A DNA stretch of 64,000 nucleotides from Spirodela intermedia (lineage: Eukaryota; Streptophyta; Magnoliopsida; Alismatales; Araceae), in NCBI GenBank assembly GCA_902729315.2, contig LR746272.1, positions 13,337,827 to 13,401,826 of the forward strand. Direction: 5' to 3'. This document shows positions 55,590 through 64,000 of the stretch, piece after piece. The notes below the pieces were generated by a model. The model was not told where the DNA came from, made no database searches, and worked only from the letters and a program-made list of their open reading frames with translations. Within the stretch, counting starts at the first letter, position 1. Every line of letters begins with the position of its first letter. A program made the translations under genes and the position numbers.

Positions 55590-56315
55590 AAGAGGTGCTA
55601 TTTTTCATGAAACTTTCTATTTTATTTATGTAATTGTTTCGATTTTAGGGCTCAAAGGAGACATGAGAAATTTCTAACTAATAATTGTGAGCAGCTGAAA
55701 ATTTCGATCTAGGTTTGATGAAGTTACGGCCACATGGTAGGGAACACCACAAGGCAACTGGCCATGGAGATCGACACCTTATGGAACAAGTACGATACTG
55801 CCAACTACCACGTTGCTGTTGACATCAGTAGCATCATCTCTAATGTCACTGCCCCTCTTAGCGACGCCAACATCGAGCTGATGAAGGAGAAACCAGTGAT
55901 ATACAAGGTAAATTACGTTGGGTGGATGAAGAACCTCGAGGTCTCGGCAGGATATGCCGACGAGGTACCCCTCAAGAGCATTGTCAACTTCTCTATCGTC
56001 ATCGCTCAGATAAATCCCATCTACGTGGGTTTCACTGCGGGATCGGGTCCCTCATCCAATTACAGCGAGAGCATCCAGATTCTCAACTGGAACTTCTCCT
56101 TCACCCTGCTGCCAGACTGGTCTCTTGAGGAGCCTGGCAATAGGAAGAGAGAAAGAAGGTTACACACCATTCTCACAATCATCCTTTCAACTATTGTGGG
56201 TGTTCCTTTGCTTGGGATACTGATCCTATTAGGGTTGAGGAGGGTGCAAAAGTGGAGGAGGTGTAAGCAGCATGAGGCTTTATTGGAGATGAAGGATATA
56301 GTATCAAGTCAATAG

Positions 56316-57249
56316 AGAATGATAATAATATAATGAGAATGAATAAGAAGTTATATTTGATTCCTTAGTGACTCAAAATAGGGTGTACCATTTTTTATTA
56401 ATAAAAAGGGGTTTTCTTATAACCTTCTAAAAGAGTAATGAGATCTTTGAAGAGTGACTCACAATATGTGACCTGAGGACTATGAGCCCCTTTTATATAG
56501 ATAAAGAGTGGTTTGTTCTTGGATGTTATTTTTTGCTTAGAAAACCAAAAATTAAAATTGTACCCAATCTCTAAACATATTTATATTTATTTTCATACTT
56601 AAGATGTTTCAATCTCAAATATTTAAATTTAGATGAATCAATTTAATTAAGATTAACTTGACGATAATCTTTTAATATAAAATTCATATATAATTTGGGC
56701 ATATTGAGATCAAATCTAATAATCCCCTACCTAGAAAACATAGATTTAGTAACTTGATATTGTATATTAGTAATTTATGAGTTCAATACATTGATATTAT
56801 TACCAAACACATCTCCAACAATCTCATCTATCATTACATTAATAGAATATTAAATAGATTTTTTGTCACATTTATATGTATCTAAATTTGACAACAATCA
56901 TATATATATTAATACAATGAATGACGTAAACAATTATATATGTGTAAATGTAATATATGAAATATGATTCATGCTTGTACATTTCCAACTAGTCCATCTT
57001 ATTTTCAATGGATATCAATCAAATATATTAAGAGTGAAAAATAATCATAAAATATATTCATGTATGAAATAATTAAAGGTTGTGTCTATAAAAATGTGTC
57101 AAAAGGTAAATTCTCACGACAAGTACATATCTTCATAAGGTATTATGCCCATATGAGTAGCATGCTCATAAAAAACCTTTGTTGGAAGTCTTTTAGTATG
57201 TGGATCTATTTTCATAATTTTTTTCCCAAACAATTTGGCCACTATGAAC
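56316..57249 (-). repeat. AT-rich DNA with an LTR-like start
   Basis: Begins where copy E breaks off. On the minus strand CTATATAAAAGGGGC near 56490-56504 resembles an LTR TATA box, consistent with a 3' LTR of the copia remnant to the right. The ends could not be placed. Confidence 0.35.
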
Positions 57250-58149
57250 TTGTTTCTTAACTATTTGGAACCTAATATCTATATAACTAGGCTTCATCAA
57301 GTTCTTAATTTTTTTTTCAGAATCATAATAATTGACTTATTGCACATAATAATTTTAGTAGTGTTTCAATTACATTTAAAGGTTGTAACCTTGTGAAAAA
57401 ATTCTTCAATCAAGTATGTCTTATGATTAGATGTCTTATAACATGTTATAAACTCCTATGTTATGGTGGAAGAAGTTATAAGTGATTGCTTAACACTCTT
57501 TCTAATATAGTTCTTCTAATCAATATTTATATATAGCTCATAGTAGATCTTCTATGATTAATCTATTTAGTAAAAAATAAAATTATAATACCTACTAACT
57601 TTTAGTTATTTTATTTTTTTATATGTAAACATCTTGTTCTTTATCTTATGTAAATAGCGCAAAACTCTTTTGGTTGCCTTTCAATGATTCACACTTAAAT
57701 TACTTAAATATCTACTTAATTCTCTAATTATGTACAAAATATATAGACACATCATAGAAAACTTCATATAATTGATTAATTGCGTATCTTTAAAACTTCA
57801 TATAACTAATGAATAAAACATTTTTTTACATCACTTTAGCATCATAATCATTTTTAGGACACTAATCAAGATTCAATTTATCTACTTCAACAACAAGGGT
57901 ATCATAAAATTTACATCTTTACATATTAGATCTCTCGAAGACTTACTCAACATAACTCCTTTATGACATCCCAATGATGTTTTGAGAGTGATCTTTATTA
58001 TCTTTTATGTGCAATATAATAATAGCTTCACCAAAATGCTTCATTTTATAGTTTCTTGATATAAGTCTTTTTGTGTCACAAAATAAACATATATTATTGA
58101 TGTCAAGTAATATGTTATTGGCATCAATTCCAATTCTTTCTTTTTCTAT
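57250..58149 (-). pseudogene. copia RT/RNase H remnant
   Basis: Minus-strand reading: [36 protein letters not shown] and QNIIGMS near 58130-57961, matching the RT segment after YVDD. Then KATKRVLRYL near 57690-57660, and a degraded RNase H stretch near 57500-57300. Stops and frame changes are frequent. The right end at 58149/58150 is fused to a plastid psaB fragment. Confidence 0.65.
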
Positions 58150-58254
58150 TGGCTTATCTCTCCATTGAATCAAATTTGCTAAAGGTGTGCGCTCATGAGC
58201 CCATGCTAAAGTTTCAATTAATTCCTGCCAATACCCACACCAGGAAATTAAAAA
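58150..58254 (-). pseudogene. psaB: Plastid-derived psaB fragment
   Basis: The minus-strand translation gives [18 protein letters not shown] and [17 protein letters not shown], a conserved stretch of the photosystem I P700 apoprotein A2. Two residues differ from what I remember (R to C and R to Q). It is 105 bp in frame, joined without a gap to copia RT codons on one side. This is nuclear plastid DNA, not a gene. Confidence 0.85.
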
Positions 58255-58284
58255 GGATGAATCGCTCTTGAAAAAGAATCTATT
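58252..58284 (+). other. Plastid rrn16-trnI spacer fragment 1
   Basis: AAGGATGAATCGCTC followed by AAAAGAATCTATT resembles the segment just upstream of trnI-GAU in the plastid inverted repeat. It overlaps the psaB piece by a few bases, suggesting joining through microhomology. Confidence 0.6.
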
Positions 58285-58322
58285 TTTCATATTTTATAAA
58301 ATAAGAGGTGTTAAGCTTTTTA

Positions 58323-58393
58323 TCATTTTGGCGTCGAGCTATTTTTCCGCAGGACCACCCTTACAGTATCGTCACCGCAGTAAATTTTAGTAA
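58323..58393 (-). pseudogene. rrn5: Plastid 5S rRNA (rrn5) 3' fragment
   Basis: The + strand reads GGCGTCGAGCTATTTTTCCG then CAGTATCGTCACCGCAGTA, the reverse complement of the 3' half of plastid 5S rRNA. A few substitutions are present. It is distinct from the cytosolic 5S-like repeats further right. Confidence 0.8.
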
Positions 58394-58437
58394 CTTCTAT
58401 TGATTTTTTGAGTGTCGTCAGAAATGAAACTCCAAAT

Positions 58438-58540
58438 GTCGGAGTTTTTCACAAAGACTTGCCATGGTAAGGGGGAAGGGTGGAACAAGCAAAGCACACT
58501 TGTAGAGTGCAGTACAGTGGAGAGCTGTATGCTGTGTTCC
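58438..58540 (+). other. Plastid rrn16-trnI spacer fragment 2
   Basis: TTCACAAAGACTTGCCATGG followed by GTAAGGGGGAAG, GGAACAAGC and GTACAGTGGAGAG resembles plastid inverted-repeat spacer sequence between rrn16 and trnI. It belongs just upstream of fragment 1 in the plastome but lies to its right here. Confidence 0.65.
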
Positions 58541-58576
58541 CACAACAACGAAAGCACTTTTTCATTCTTTCATATA

Positions 58577-58680
58577 CTAGGGGCTATTCATTCAATATTT
58601 TCATTTTTAGAGGATAAATTTGCACATTTAAATTATGTATCAGATATACTAATACCTTATCCCGTCCATCTAGAAAACTC
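58577..58680 (+). pseudogene. matK: Plastid-derived matK fragment
   Basis: Translation gives [19 protein letters not shown] then [12 protein letters not shown], a well-known conserved stretch of maturase K. It stops abruptly after HLE. In the plastome, matK lies in the large single-copy region, far from rrn5. Confidence 0.85.
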
Positions 58681-58759
58681 AACATTGAAGTTTTAGAAAA
58701 AGACTAGAATTAGAATTCGTATTTAATTATTGTGTTGTAATAAAAAAATGGAGAATATT

Positions 58760-58941
58760 TCCTTTTTCAATTAAGATGGGATGATTCTTTGAATCAAAGA
58801 ATGATCAACAATATCAAGGTATATTGTCTCACTGATAGCTGGAGACAAGAGATTCAGGAAGATTTATTAAATCACATAGTTTGGGCTCCTAGAATATGGC
58901 GCCCTTGTGGCAATCTATTTGATTGTATCGAAAGGACCAAG
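58760..58941 (+). pseudogene. Plastid ycf1/ycf2-like fragment
   Basis: One open frame reads [20 protein letters not shown], then [19 protein letters not shown], then [16 protein letters not shown]. The first part recalls ycf1 and the second ycf2, so it may be two fused pieces. I am unsure of the gene assignment but fairly sure of plastid origin. It ends exactly where TTTAGGG repeats begin. Confidence 0.55.
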
Positions 58942-58969
58942 GTTTAGGGTTTAGGGTTTTTTTTTTTTT
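58941..58969 (+). repeat. Telomere-like repeat plus poly(T)
   Basis: Two and a half TTTAGGG units are followed at once by about 13 T. On the minus strand this is an A-tail followed by CCCTAAA units. Confidence 0.85.
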
Positions 58970-59209
58970 GGAGATAGATGCCACTTTCACCTCTCGACAT
59001 TGTGGTAGGGGTGCCTCTCGGCACATTTTTTGGAGCTGGGGGCATCTTGGCATGGTGATGGAGGGGTTCATAATATGTGCTGCCCATCTAGGGACTGCTC
59101 CCACCCGGGGACTTCCCAGAGAGGTCACCCATCTAGGGACTGCTCCCACCCAAGCACACTTAACTCTAGAGTTCTTATGAGATCCGATGGCAACTCTCCC
59201 ACTAAGGGG
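58970..59209 (-). repeat. 5S-rRNA-derived repeat unit 1 with minisatellite
   Basis: 59108-59190 is a diverged reverse complement of the cytosolic 5S rRNA (minus strand: AACTCTAGAGTTAAGTGTGC, GATGGGTGACCTC). Leftwards (58975-59075) follows one copy of the CTCTCGGCACATT...GGCATGGTGA minisatellite, then poly(A) on the minus strand. Rightwards lies a leader (CCCCCTTAGTGGGAGAGTTG). Confidence 0.65.
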
Positions 59210-59240
59210 GTTTAGGATTTAAGGTTTAGGGTTTAGGGGT
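59210..59240 (+). repeat. Degenerate telomere-like repeat
   Basis: TTTAGGATTTAAGGTTTAGG and a further unit: about four TTTAGGG-type units with errors. Confidence 0.75.
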
Positions 59241-59867
59241 CCATCTATGAGTGTACATAATAACATTTTGAATCTCCCATGTGGTTCGGCTCTAGGCTTT
59301 TTGATAATCAACCTCGAGCTCGAATCGAATGAAGATACTCCAATAATCACAAGTACCAATGGCTACATTTCCTTGAAAATGTCCAAGAGCTAAATATACT
59401 TTCTAGATGTCATCTAAATGGGGATGTTTTGTGGTAAAACGTCTAATCAATGCAAACTGAAATGCCTTAGCTAACTAACAGACCTCATTCAAAGAGAATG
59501 AGACTATTCTCATTCCTTCTTCCTCAATATAACCCAAGTTGGCTGTATTCTTGTAAGTCACTGGGCCCAAGTCTTGGCTAAGGGTTGAGTGGGTTGAGCC
59601 GACATATTAGGAATTTGTGTGGGCTGGGTTAGTATGAATGGGGCTTGAGTTTGGATCTGGGCTGGCTCTGCCCGCATAGGTCTTACTTTGGTAGTAATAG
59701 GCCGCACATGTGTTTGGGCCCAGATATCCTTGGGTTTTGTGGCCTTGGGTGTTGCTGCCTCAGCTTGAGCGGGTGCTGCCGCCACCATTGTGGCACCGCC
59801 CCCATCAGCCCCTGCTAGTCGATGCTAATTGATGAGTCGTCTCTGAAAAGAGACTGAGTGATCCTTT
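59241..59867. other. Unassigned DNA with a Pro/Ala/Gln-rich minus-strand frame
   Basis: A 76-codon minus-strand frame (59558-59788) is rich in Pro, Ala, Gln and Thr (PIPNMSAQPTQP-like). It has no recognised domain. It could be part of a retroelement ORF, but nothing supports that. Confidence 0.35.
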
Positions 59868-59900
59868 TCCCACCGCTTGTGCAGGCCCCCGTCAATTCCT
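59868..59900 (-). pseudogene. Organellar small-subunit rRNA fragment
   Basis: The + strand reads CCACCGCTTGTGC then GGCCCCCGTCAATTCCT, the reverse complement of the conserved 16S region near E. coli position 910-940. It is only about 33 bp with one mismatch. It could be plastid rrn16 or mitochondrial. Confidence 0.6.
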
Positions 59901-59936
59901 CCCGATCCGAAGCACCCCTTTTCCATTCATAGAGAG

Positions 59937-59974
59937 AGGGTTTAGGGTTTAGGGTTTTTTTTTTTTTTTTTTTT
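59937..59974 (+). repeat. Telomere-like repeat plus poly(T)
   Basis: Three GGGTTTA units run straight into about 20 T. Confidence 0.85.
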
Positions 59975-60603
59975 GATAACTATCTTGGGCTGAACTTCTC
60001 AGGAGGTCACCCATCCTGATACTTCACACACCCAAGCACTTTGGTGCCTCTCAAGCACATTCTTTGGAGATAGATGCCACTTGCGCCTCTCAACATCATG
60101 GCAGAGGCGCCTCTCGGCACATTCTCGGCATGGTGGGGGTGTCTTGGCATAGTGAGATGGATGCCACATATGCCTCTCAGCATGGTGGTAGAGGTGCCTC
60201 TCGACACATTCTTTGCTGGGGGCGTCTTGGCATAGTGAGATGGATGCCACATATGCCTCTCGCCATGGTGGCCGAATAGGCTCTCGGCACATTCTTCGGA
60301 GCTGGGAGCATCTTGGCATGGTGAGATGGATGCCACATATACCTTTCGACATGGTGTCAAGGGTGCCTCTCAACACGTTCTTCGATACTCAAGGCATCTT
60401 GGCATGGTGACATATGGGTTTATAACACATGCTGGGCAGCGATGCCTTTCAGCACATGCACAACAAGCGTCTTGCAACGCATGCACATGTACTGGGGGAC
60501 CTCCCAGGGAGGTCACCCATCTAGGGATTGACCCCACCCGAGCACACTTAACTCCGGAGTTCTTATGGGATTCGGTGGCAACTCTCCCACTAAGGTGGGT
60601 TGA
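59975..60603 (-). repeat. 5S-rRNA-derived repeat unit 2 with expanded minisatellite
   Basis: Minus-strand order: leader, 5S-like body (60577-60499: ACTCCGGAGTTAAGTGTGCT, GATGGGTGACCTCC), minisatellite (about 60430-60060), a second partial 5S piece (60030-59995: GGATGGGTGACCTCCTGAG), GCCCAAGATAGTTATC, then poly(A). The 5' 30 or so bases of normal 5S rRNA are missing. The body keeps box A-like and box C-like sequence. Confidence 0.65.
60060..60430. repeat. 83-87-bp minisatellite, about 4-5 copies
   Basis: GTGAGATGGATGCCACATAT occurs near 60152, 60235 and 60321, with a variant near 60066. Each is followed by GCCTCTCGGCACATTC-type sequence. Confidence 0.8.
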
Positions 60604-60791
60604 GGGTTTTTTTTTTTTTTTTTTGATAATTGTCTTGGGTTGAACTTCTCAAGAGGTCACCCATCCTGATACGCATGCACACGTACTCGGGGACTTCCCA
60701 GGGAGGTCACCCATCGGGGGACTACTCCTACCCGAGCACGCTTAACTTCGGAGTTCTTATGGGATCCGGTGGCAACTCTCCCACTAAGGGA
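60604..60791 (-). repeat. 5S-rRNA-derived repeat unit 3 (best preserved)
   Basis: 60691-60772 on the minus strand contains CCGGATCCCATAAGAACTCC, GAAGTTAAGCGTGCTCGGG and GATGGGTGACCTCC, very close to plant cytosolic 5S rRNA from about base 28 on. A second partial copy (60672-60645), AATTATC and a poly(A) of about 18 (60624-60607) follow. The minisatellite is absent in this unit. Confidence 0.75.
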
Positions 60792-60832
60792 GGGTTTAGG
60801 GTTTAGGGTTTAGGGTTTTTTTTTTTTTTTTT
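60792..60832 (+). repeat. Telomere-like repeat plus poly(T)
   Basis: Three and a half GGGTTTA units followed by about 16 T. The T run is the A-tail of the minus-strand LINE to the right. Confidence 0.85.
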
Positions 60833-62249
60833 AAAATGAAGAAATTTGATTGAGTGATAACAGTTTGACCTCATTCTGAGGTTACATAAGTGGTATCTCA
60901 TTCGCATAAGGGGCGAGGATGACATGGAGGGTGAAAGACCTCTTTTTTTAGAGGGGATGTGATAATACTGGAGATAGACTCCAGTTTGCTCATCATATTT
61001 GAAGAAACCAGTTGATCTGCATTTGGGTTGAAAGAGCCTTTGAGTTCATGAAGTTGGAATATCTGGTTGCCAATAGTAGGACGTGTAAACCTCCATGTTG
61101 TGCACTATGAGGTGTTCCTGTAAGAGAAGAATTTGCTGCAGTAAGTGGTTCTAAGAAAGAAATAAAATGATATAAAGTGGTAAGAAAATAGTTGTTAAGA
61201 CAGTGAGGAGTATAAAACTATGCTAGAGTATGACAATAAGCCCAAATATGAATTTGCCTTCTTAGTGCTGCACACGTCTAATCCCTCTGGCCAAGATCTT
61301 GTTAGTACCATCAGTTGTCGTACTTCCTCTAAATAGGTAAGGAACCTTTCACCCCACGAGGAATGACTTGGTCTCTTTTTCTAACTCTTTTCTTTTCTCT
61401 TATTCTCTCTCTCTTTTTTCTCTTTTTTTTTTTTTTTTTGAGGGCCTCTTCTTTTACCCTCCACTAATGCCCATTATTTGGTGTACAAGGGTAATTCTCT
61501 TTGGAGTCTAGTGATTGGGGGAAGGAAAATAGGTTGCTCACATTTTTTTTTTTTTTTTTTTTTGAGGGCCCTTTCCCTCATCCTCCACTAATTGTCTATG
61601 ATGGGCTAGTGATTCCGGGAAAAGAAGGAGGCTATCTCTCTTTTTTTTTTTTTTTCTTTTTTAAAAAGAGAGAAAGGGAGGGAGAAAGAAATAGAGAATC
61701 GAGAGAGAGAGAGAAGAGAGAGGGTTAATCCTATGGATATATATCATTTCCTTCTCATGGGTTCAAGCTGGCTGATGGTACTAATGAGATCTTGAGAGAG
61801 GTGCTAGGTTGACGATTCACAACTAGTTTGGCAGGTCTGATGTGCTATAGACCTATAGTTCAAAAGTGGGCAGATGTTAACATGTGCTGATAGTTCTATG
61901 TCCTCACTACTTGAGGGTGATAGATAATAGATGTGAGGTGATTATGAGGAGAGTAATGATTGGAAGTAGTGTACCCGAGTAGATTACGATGTGCCTTGTT
62001 GTCCATCTTGTGTTGATAGACAAAATGCATTCCACATCGGTGGTATGAGATGAGCGCCATGATGATGTCATGGTTGTGGCTTGTGATAGACCTAAAAACA
62101 GGAACAAAGGAAACACGTACCTATATCTCCATTGTGGTCTTCAGCGGCCAATAGTAACCACCCTTGATCTCTTCCAAGCAATACGCTACTACCGTGGAGG
62201 GGCCGGTAGTGGAGTGCGGTGTATGCGTAAAAAGGGTATGTCGAGTCGC

Positions 62250-62720
62250 TCAAGTTTATGAGCACCTCAGGCTGCGAGGGGAATGTCCTGCCAAAAAGAG
62301 AAGACTGTCCTCCGACGCGATCTGACTCCATACGTAGCAAGGGTGTCGGCTGTCTGATTCCCTTCTCGGAACTGATGCATAATGGTTGTGATGCGTCCTC
62401 GACATCGCATGGTGTCTGCCCAGATATTCTTGAGCCTCCAATGAGGACAAGAGTCTGCACGTAACATGTCCACTAACACTTTGGAATCAGATTCTAAGAC
62501 AATATTAGTAATATTTTGCTCCTCACAAAGAAGCAAACCATCCCGTATTGCCATAGCCTCTGTCTCAGTATTAGTTCGTATATTATAAAAGTTTGAAAAG
62601 GCAAAGAGAATGCATCCAGTACTATCACGTAAAATACCTCCTCCTCTAGGTGGTCCAGGGTTGCCTTGAGATGCTCCATCGACGTTGAATTTCCACTATC
62701 CAACCCTCGGTGGTGTCCAT
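62250..62720 (-). pseudogene. LINE RNase H domain
   Basis: Minus-strand codons give FNVDGASQGNPG (catalytic Asp), ETEAMAIRDGLLLCEE (Glu), VLESDSKVLVDML (Asp) and HQFREGNQTADTLA. These are the RNase H motifs of the plant L1 group that acquired this domain. The frame is split near 62560. Confidence 0.8.
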
Positions 62721-62920
62721 CTAACAAACCGGATAGTAGTCCAGGTCTGTGTAAGTATGATATGGAGTCCCCAAAGCCCAAAAGCCTCACAAACAGAACG
62801 CGAGCGTTTCATTTTGTTTGGCACTAAGGAATGAGTACTTCGAAGCCATTGTGTTACGTGCCTCATAATCTCTGTGACACGCATCACTTGGCCTGCAAAT
62901 CGAGATGAGTTACGTCCCTT

Positions 62921-63391
62921 TCATATTTCCCATAACATATATGCTTTGGAGATACAGATAAAGGGACTAAGTTTGACACTCGTCGGTGAGTCAATGACTT
63001 TCCTAAAGACCTCTAGTGGTGGTCTCGTAGGTCTGTACGAGAGCATTGGAAGCCAATTCGCTAGAAGTTGACGCCAACACTCGACAACGATATCACTATA
63101 GAAAAATAGATGTTCCATACTTTCGTCCATCGTGATGGAGCAACAATGACATCTCCTTTCCACCTCTTGATCGGTGACAATCACTCGATCGTCGGTGGGT
63201 AGTCCTCGGTACATGAACTTCCACAGGAAGAACGAAACACGAGGTGTGATGGCCGGATGCCATATGAGATTTTCCCAAAATGTCTTTGGGGAGTGGTTTC
63301 TAAAGTGCTCCCAAGAGGAGCTACAAGAGAAACTGCCATCTACAGTAAGTGTCCAGATGGGTTGATCCTCAGTAAAACTCGTCTCAGTCAT
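62921..63391 (-). pseudogene. LINE zf-RVT domain
   Basis: A 156-residue frame with FWENLIWHPAITPRVSFFLW, GLPTDDRV, CHCC and ESMEHLFFYSDIV, matching the zinc-binding reverse transcriptase region of plant LINEs (usual form: CxxC...E...HLFxxC). The last Cys of the HLFxxC-type end reads YSD, so the site is degraded. Confidence 0.8.
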
Positions 63392-63721
63392 GGTGATGGC
63401 TGGTAATAAGTCCGACGGTAGTCTATGCCTCTCAATAAGTAGACGAGTGTCTCCCTAGAGAAGCTGGGCTACCGTCAAGCGAGGCCAAGAGGATGTGAAA
63501 GTGGTAAAACTAGCCAATAGTGTGTCCTCTAGCCAAGTGTCGTACCAGGCACTAATCGCGCCTCGCCCTACTCGCCAACGAATAAGGGGCACCATCTCTA
63601 ACCAATGTCACTACCAGTCTGCCCATCGTTTGACTCCTTTGATGTCAGCCGGCTGTCGAGCCCACTCACCATACTTGGTTGACACAAAAGAGCCTAGCAC
63701 CGATGGTGTAGTCCTCATCCT

Positions 63722-63964
63722 TCAAACGAGTTTCTTTTGAAGCATGTTGAGTACATCTTGAGGGTGCCGAATATCTAGGCCACCCTCATCCGTAGGTCGA
63801 CATGCTTTCTCCCAAGAAACTCGACGTTGGCGACGAGGTCCCTCAAGTTGTCCATCCCAAAGGAAGGATGTGCATATCAGTCTAATAGTCTGTAAGACGG
63901 TGTCTGGTACCTCATTGACTGCCAAAAGCTGTAATGGCATGCTCATGAGGACATGGCGTATCAA
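63722..63964 (-). pseudogene. LINE reverse transcriptase C-terminal part
   Basis: Contains ICTSFLWDG and RVSWEKACRPTDEGGLDIRH, the conserved region after the RT core in plant L1 elements, next to PLQLLAVNEVPDTVL. Truncated by frame breaks. Confidence 0.8.
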
Positions 63965-64000
63965 TTGAATCCATCCTCCAGCGGATATAAGCTGTAACTT

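Follow-up and report, generated by a model that had tools for sequence, protein, structure and literature searches.

Most accounts present scrambled NUPTs as filling internal breaks. They are an already known kind of insertion, and four papers treat complex NUPTs together with signs of NHEJ (PMC6215612, PMC7037861, PMC3989485, PMC12181080). For short insertions in Chlamydomonas a range of 28-384 bp is given, NUPTs and NUMTs being counted together (PMC10030371). Among the elements found at chromosome ends, Zepp is presented in another paper as a telomere-associated LINE of Chlorella (PMC10088271). Telomeric retroelements are rare in plants: a further source names a Penelope-like element of Selaginella and Retand of Silene, and reports none like the Drosophila kind (PMC12477314). 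For Spirodela intermedia, LINEs are put at 0.37-0.49% in a section that does not mention chromosome ends (PMC7645714).

We analysed the last 64 kb of the 13.4-Mb contig C9 of S. intermedia (64,000 nucleotides numbered from the first letter, hereafter the window). Near its right end, plastid blocks in scrambled order lie between a truncated Copia-like element and telomere-type DNA.

Content and order of the plastid mosaic

The features of this region are the following (L numbers designate other loci of the same genome).

56281..58124, minus strand: Copia-like retrotransposon, with further copies in the genome and cut at 58124 within the reverse-transcriptase YVDD motif
58125..58145, no strand: gap of 21 bp between Copia and psaB, no match
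58146..58254, minus strand: psaB fragment, PsaB residues ~664-699 (PDB, Pfam, L004)
58253..58284, plus strand: trnI-GAU intron piece A, 29 of 32 bases equal to positions 89-120 of an assumed reference
58285..58294, no strand: gap of 10 bp, no match
58295..58389, minus strand: 3' part of plastid rrn5 and downstream spacer (assumed rrn5 query, L022)
58390..58439, no strand: gap of 50 bp, no own-genome copy
58440..58539, plus strand: trnI-GAU intron piece B (assumed reference, L007), ending at reference position 85
58540..58583, plus strand: ycf2 fragment 1, Ycf2 residues ~1820-1834 (match over residues 1820-1838, E=4.6e-4; L037)
58584..58676, plus strand: matK fragment (Pfam MatK_N 3.8e-14, positions 124-157)
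58676..58752, plus strand: plastid rps18-rpl20 intergenic piece in rps18 sense, 77 of 77 bases identical to L002 (L003, 95%)
58753..58829, plus strand: ycf1 (TIC214) fragment, residues 1544-1568 (E=9e-5; L008, 86% over 58754-58829)
58830..58845, no strand: gap of 16 bp, no match
58846..58940, plus strand: ycf2 fragment 2, Ycf2 residues ~2078-2108 (E=3.1e-12; L005, 94%; L006, 91%)
58941..58969, plus strand: telomere repeats GG(TTTAGGG)2, then poly(T), directly abutting the last plastid block
58970..60794, no strand: subtelomeric array with an 83-86 bp tandem repeat, 5S-rRNA-like units (minus strand) and more (TTTAGGG)2-poly(T) sites
60795..60832, plus strand: telomere repeats and poly(T), at the 3' end of the element that follows
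60833..64000, minus strand: LINE, 3' end on the proximal side, cut off by the end of the contig (zf-RVT 4.9e-20; RNase H-like frame read by eye)

A sequence-only reading of the window had claimed at least five plastid fragments within 0.8 kb, at 58150..58941. The mosaic is there and is denser than claimed, with at least nine blocks, and its limits are better placed at 58125-58940. All the fragments that had been named are present in the order and orientation given, once some labels are corrected. The two pieces attributed to the rrn16-trnI spacer are real, and trnI-GAU intron is a better label for both than spacer, a correction based partly on an assumed reference. The "ycf1/ycf2-like" stretch does contain pieces of both genes, as two separate blocks (TIC214/ycf1, E=9e-5, and Ycf2, E=3.1e-12) and not as a single stretch. 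Two blocks had been overlooked, namely ycf2 fragment 1 and the 77-bp rps18-rpl20 spacer piece.

The plastid blocks are 32-109 bp long, lie on mixed strands and span ~719 of the 816 bp of 58125-58940; the remaining ~97 bp are without assignment and fall in four gaps (21, 10, 50 and 16 bp). From left to right the order is psaB (-), trnI intron A (+), rrn5 with downstream sequence (-), trnI intron B (+), ycf2 (+) and matK (+), followed by the rps18-rpl20 spacer (+), ycf1 (+) and ycf2 (+). Complex NUPTs have at least two plastid fragments adjacent in nuclear DNA, and this is what the mosaic displays, with nuclear flanks visible. The blocks are not collinear with the plastome: Ycf2 1820-1838 is followed by matK, the rps18-side spacer and ycf1, and only then by Ycf2 2078-2108. 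The plastome gene order used in this comparison is the one we take to be typical.

The psaB block (minus strand) matched PsaB in the PDB (E=1.9e-15, residues 669-699) and the Pfam family PsaA_PsaB (2.2e-12), as well as L004 at 86% over 58151-58237. Positions 58238-58254 presumably belong to it too, going by the expected PsaB sequence. A query of assumed plant plastid rrn5 and downstream sequence matched the rrn5 block (minus strand) over 90 nt (58300-58389) at 93% (E=2.3e-31). L022 is a second nuclear copy of this block, with an Rfam 5S score of 33.6 bits, below the gathering score of 38; Rfam scans gave no score to the truncated rrn5 piece and the intron piece of the window. Piece A was identified by local alignment only, to an assumed 3' end of the trnI-GAU intron, and a genome search returned no further copy of it. 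Piece B was found by a genome search with the assumed intron reference (E=3.6e-19, 83%), matches L007 at 91% over 58445-58511, and ends at what we take to be the terminus of domain V (reference position 85). The domain-V-like hairpin folds well in the assumed canonical sequence (z=-5.3) and weakly in the window copy (z=-1.2).

Further to the right, ycf2 fragment 1 is identical to L037 in 44 of 44 bases, and the bases under ~3 residues of the matK profile match were given to ycf2 for this reason. The exact edges of the matK block are presumed from the expected sequence, and a genome search found no other copy of this fragment. The 77-bp spacer copy in L002 adjoins open rps18 and rpl33 frames; rpl20 is assumed to follow, from the usual gene order. 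An excess of C>T and G>A is what methylation in the nucleus would be expected to leave, and these types account for 10 of the 19 changes relative to assumed references (4 of 6 in rrn5, 3 of 3 in piece A and 3 of 10 in piece B). Some of the changes in piece B are common to L007 and are therefore older. Compared with other nuclear copies, ycf2 fragment 1 (L037) and the spacer piece (L002) carry no change at all.

Searches of plasmid and phage DNA for the plastid reference gave no matches, and exact plastid sequence patterns had none in viral_contigs or genome_contigs. One of five plastid words matched the literature, in primers tagged as chloroplast markers and lacking an rrn5 label. Other short plastid fragments (~40-150 bp) are numerous in the genome (L002-L008, L022, L037, L038), and some longer ones occur elsewhere in it, e.g., rpl33-rps18 in L002.

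Joints between blocks and source of the fragments

The sequence-only reading had favoured end joining of several fragments over the transfer of one long piece, and the scrambled order, mixed strands and close-packed joints fit this view and are not what one long transferred piece would give. It had also pointed to microhomology between psaB and the adjacent piece. The shared bases exist (a 2-bp overlap, AA, partly from assumed psaB codons), yet chance often gives such an overlap and its weight as evidence is small. With references that are partly assumed, the overlap at the joint between matK and the spacer piece is 1 bp, and those between piece B and ycf2 and between ycf2 and matK are 0 bp; three further joints are masked by unassigned bases, and the one between the spacer piece and ycf1 was given no overlap value. 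We dropped microhomology as evidence for joining, since the overlaps are only 0-2 bp. The joints allow blunt or microhomology-assisted end joining, and the sequence as it stands would be compatible with more than a single pathway.

The two intron pieces bear on where the fragments came from. In the assumed plastid reference, the end of piece B (position 85) and the start of piece A (position 89) are separated by ~3 bp, whereas in the mosaic the two pieces are swapped and stand apart. When nine fragments were placed uniformly in 20,000 simulation runs, any two ends fell within 3 bp in 0.72% of the runs and within 10 bp in 2.2%, a proximity test made post hoc and with an assumed reference. The closeness of the two ends favours one broken and rejoined molecule over independent pieces, and it fits an origin of pieces A and B from the same molecule. 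Capture by a Helitron or Pack-type transposon seems less likely, as only plastid pieces were seen, and was set aside.

The flanks and the distribution of end-type units

The Copia-like element on the left gave 47 own-genome matches (40 of 45 candidates scored). All nine copies compared (L010-L018) share homology with each other past the point at which Copia breaks off in the window, over ~100 bp (L018) to 1490 bp (several of L013-L017), and the LYVDDILL motif, intact in L014, is broken in the window. None of this further Copia sequence has a match in the window at E 1e-3. For L012 and L018, flank matches to other parts of the window begin only at flank positions 404 and 817, outside the shared Copia part. 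A simple insert with target duplication was rejected, as Copia does not resume in the window. Positions 1-56315 contain several lectin-receptor-kinase-like frames (named by eye), some of them interrupted by retroelements.

On the right, the (TTTAGGG)2 adjoining the last plastid block is the most proximal one of the window, and the array that follows contains three 5S-rRNA-like units on the minus strand (59094-59215, 60483-60599 and 60677-60792), which share a short distal end sequence near TTTAGGG. In a restricted scan one of them scored 38.0 bits, which equals the gathering score; a scan of the whole window at that score listed none. These units are possibly a 5S-derived SINE moved by the LINE. 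The sequence AAGGTTTAGGGTTTAGGG is also present inside arrays. No telomere repeats stand at the very end of contig C9, while the published S. intermedia clone 8410 assembly is described as having telomeres at both ends of all 18 pseudomolecules (PMC7645714).

We counted such units over the 32 contigs (136.5 Mb) of the genome, where 18 large contigs (at least 3.8 Mb) provide 36 ends and the zones within 60 kb of these ends make up 1.6% of their length. The first 396 bp of the right flank had 298 genome matches, and among the matches listed most were near contig ends (by eye). The LINE probe had 61 matches: 42 within 60 kb of large-contig ends, 17 internal, and two on the small contig C30. Near ends, 41 of the 42 have the polarity seen in the window, i.e., a fixed orientation with the poly(A) end proximal. 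Insertion is not confined to telomere repeats, as shown by the internal matches (17 of 61) and by L049, where the poly(T) lies on non-telomeric DNA. The exact joint (TTTAGGG)2-T12 occurs 44 times, with 39 occurrences within 60 kb of ends, two internal and three on C30. All 39 have outward polarity, and the joint is present at 21 of the 36 large-contig ends. The same pattern read backwards was absent genome-wide, as was A12-N(0-3)-(TTTAGGG)2.

We inspected 20 of the 44 joints: the two internal ones and, for each of 18 ends, the joint lying farthest inward. Inward of the telomere repeats, nine have an adjacent 5S-like unit (BLAST). At L071 (C11 right) and L072 (C12 right), the repeats sit directly on 5'-truncated LINE DNA, with different truncation points. 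The joint at L083 is 38 bp away from recognised LINE DNA; therefore only L071 and L072 count as direct telomere-on-LINE cases. At L082, LINE DNA of the opposite orientation precedes a longer stretch of telomere repeats. The right end of C15 (L074), taken up as a second joint between chromosome body and telomere, was rejected: the DNA there is subtelomeric and repeated, with 28 matches. On the far side of the poly(T), BLAST matched the LINE 3' end at three joints and the end of the 5S-like unit at six; some further joints match by eye, whereas other sequence follows at L079, L085, L088 and L089 at least. L088, one of the internal joints (C11:952748, 0.95 Mb from the contig start), has its (TTTAGGG)2-poly(T) on unrelated DNA; it may be a retroposed copy or mark a former chromosome end.

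Reverse transcription of poly(A) RNAs onto telomere repeats fits these joints, and insertion into pre-existing repeats fits them equally. The units made of telomere repeats, poly(T) and antisense LINE or 5S-like sequence are a possible case of telomere-primed retroposition in a flowering plant.

Origin of the mosaic and comparison with known systems

The sequence-only reading had pictured an insertion into nuclear DNA. The locus is not simply an internal insert: Copia does not resume in the window, and the right side is subtelomeric and begins with telomere repeats. Within the window, the distal part of the broken element is missing and telomere-type DNA stands in its place. On balance, we lean towards the mosaic being the scar of a chromosome break, which plastid shards patched and telomere or subtelomere DNA then capped. 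The chromosome would have broken near its own right end, inside the Copia element. Short plastid pieces, at least two of them from neighbouring sites of one molecule, would then have been end-joined in series onto the broken end. The telomere or subtelomere DNA of the patched end may stem from telomerase acting on the last plastid (ycf2) piece or from fusion with another subtelomere; poly(A) retroelements lie beyond it. Telomerase action would leave the same sequence as the uptake of a ready-made (TTTAGGG)2-poly(T) unit, so that the sequence does not distinguish the two. The blocks, their order, the truncated Copia and the telomere-type right flank are observed; from them we infer a single event, the joining pathway, the capping and a former chromosome terminus at the mosaic. 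The account is favoured by the right flank having its copies mainly near contig ends, with LINE matches and telomere-poly(T) joints there in nearly or wholly one polarity. Against this end repair, a later insertion or a join made in assembly could account for the right flank, C9 lacks terminal telomere repeats, no target-site duplication or empty site is seen, the L049 LINE copy sits on non-telomeric DNA, and two of the 44 telomere-poly(T) joints and 17 of the 61 LINE matches are internal, so that these units are not strictly terminal.

A bolder version of the end-repair scenario, which we regard as tentative and less likely than not, is that the ends of this genome grow by alternating telomerase and telomere-primed reverse transcription of poly(A) RNAs (TTTAGGG-poly(T)-cDNA), in a HeT-A-like manner, and that this arm was first patched with plastid DNA and then entered the cycle. 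We know of no land plant with HeT-A-like end growth alongside telomerase.

It is rather unlikely, although internal array and LINE units do occur in this genome, that the mosaic is an ordinary complex NUPT that filled an internal double-strand break and that the subtelomeric array arrived later, by transposition, ectopic recombination or translocation. The other half of Copia is not in the window, and the array, opening with telomere repeats, follows immediately on the final plastid base. Rearranged plastid pieces are present in plant mitogenomes, and the plastid DNA might have been scrambled in the mitochondrial genome before moving to the nucleus as one piece. The ~97 unassigned bp in the four gaps could be mitochondrial under such an origin. 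We consider it improbable: none of the blocks was recognised as mitochondrial in the searches made here, and nine blocks in 0.8 kb with nothing mitochondrial among them would probably be unusual. Fragmentation and reshuffling after insertion are described in two papers (PMC7037861, PMC3989485), and the stepwise decay of one or a few longer NUPTs must be weighed as well. It seems very improbable here: the source genes lie far apart in the plastome and hardly any foreign DNA separates the blocks, while decay would normally leave collinear remnants split by nuclear sequence. An assembly chimera of plastid reads is barely credible, even in a repetitive subtelomere, because every block is far shorter than a read and the blocks are not plastid-perfect (two residue changes in psaB, partly against the expected sequence, and 6/90 in rrn5 and 3/32 in intron piece A relative to assumed references).

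Returning to end repair, the mosaic lies precisely where the chromosome body gives way to subtelomere, which suggests that a broken chromosome end can be rescued with the help of loose plastid DNA. As in the complex plant NUPTs described in two papers (PMC6215612, PMC7037861), non-adjacent plastid pieces are packed side by side in mixed orientation; those joints that can be read, with partly assumed references, are blunt or overlap by 1-2 bp, which would fit as well. The mosaic differs from them in its one-sided telomere/subtelomere flank and in having at least nine pieces of 32-109 bp within 0.8 kb. The subtelomere of Arabidopsis chromosome 1 is reported to hold a rearranged NUMT of 104 bp (Kuo et al., as cited in PMC7037861), which is likewise scrambled organelle DNA in a chromosome-end region, although it is mitochondrial and shorter. 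De novo telomere addition (chromosome healing) also places telomere repeats directly on broken non-telomeric sequence with the G-strand outward; here the perfect repeats number just two, with poly(T) and an element coming after them, and joining to a pre-existing subtelomere would be indistinguishable.

Chromosome ends of this genome look as if poly(A) retroelements had been added onto their telomere repeats, a kind that a 2025 review reports as not found in plants. The right flank offers a testable flowering-plant case of telomere repeats alternating with poly(A) retroelements at chromosome ends in one polarity. The window LINE resembles HeT-A/TART/TAHRE, SART/TRAS, MoTeR, GilM/GilT and Zepp, as portrayed in one paper (PMC10088271), in its proximal poly(A) end, its single polarity and its intercalation with telomerase-type repeats. 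Unlike these telomere-associated LINEs, it belongs to an angiosperm, has RNase H-like and zf-RVT regions, is accompanied by 5S-like units and has many internal copies.
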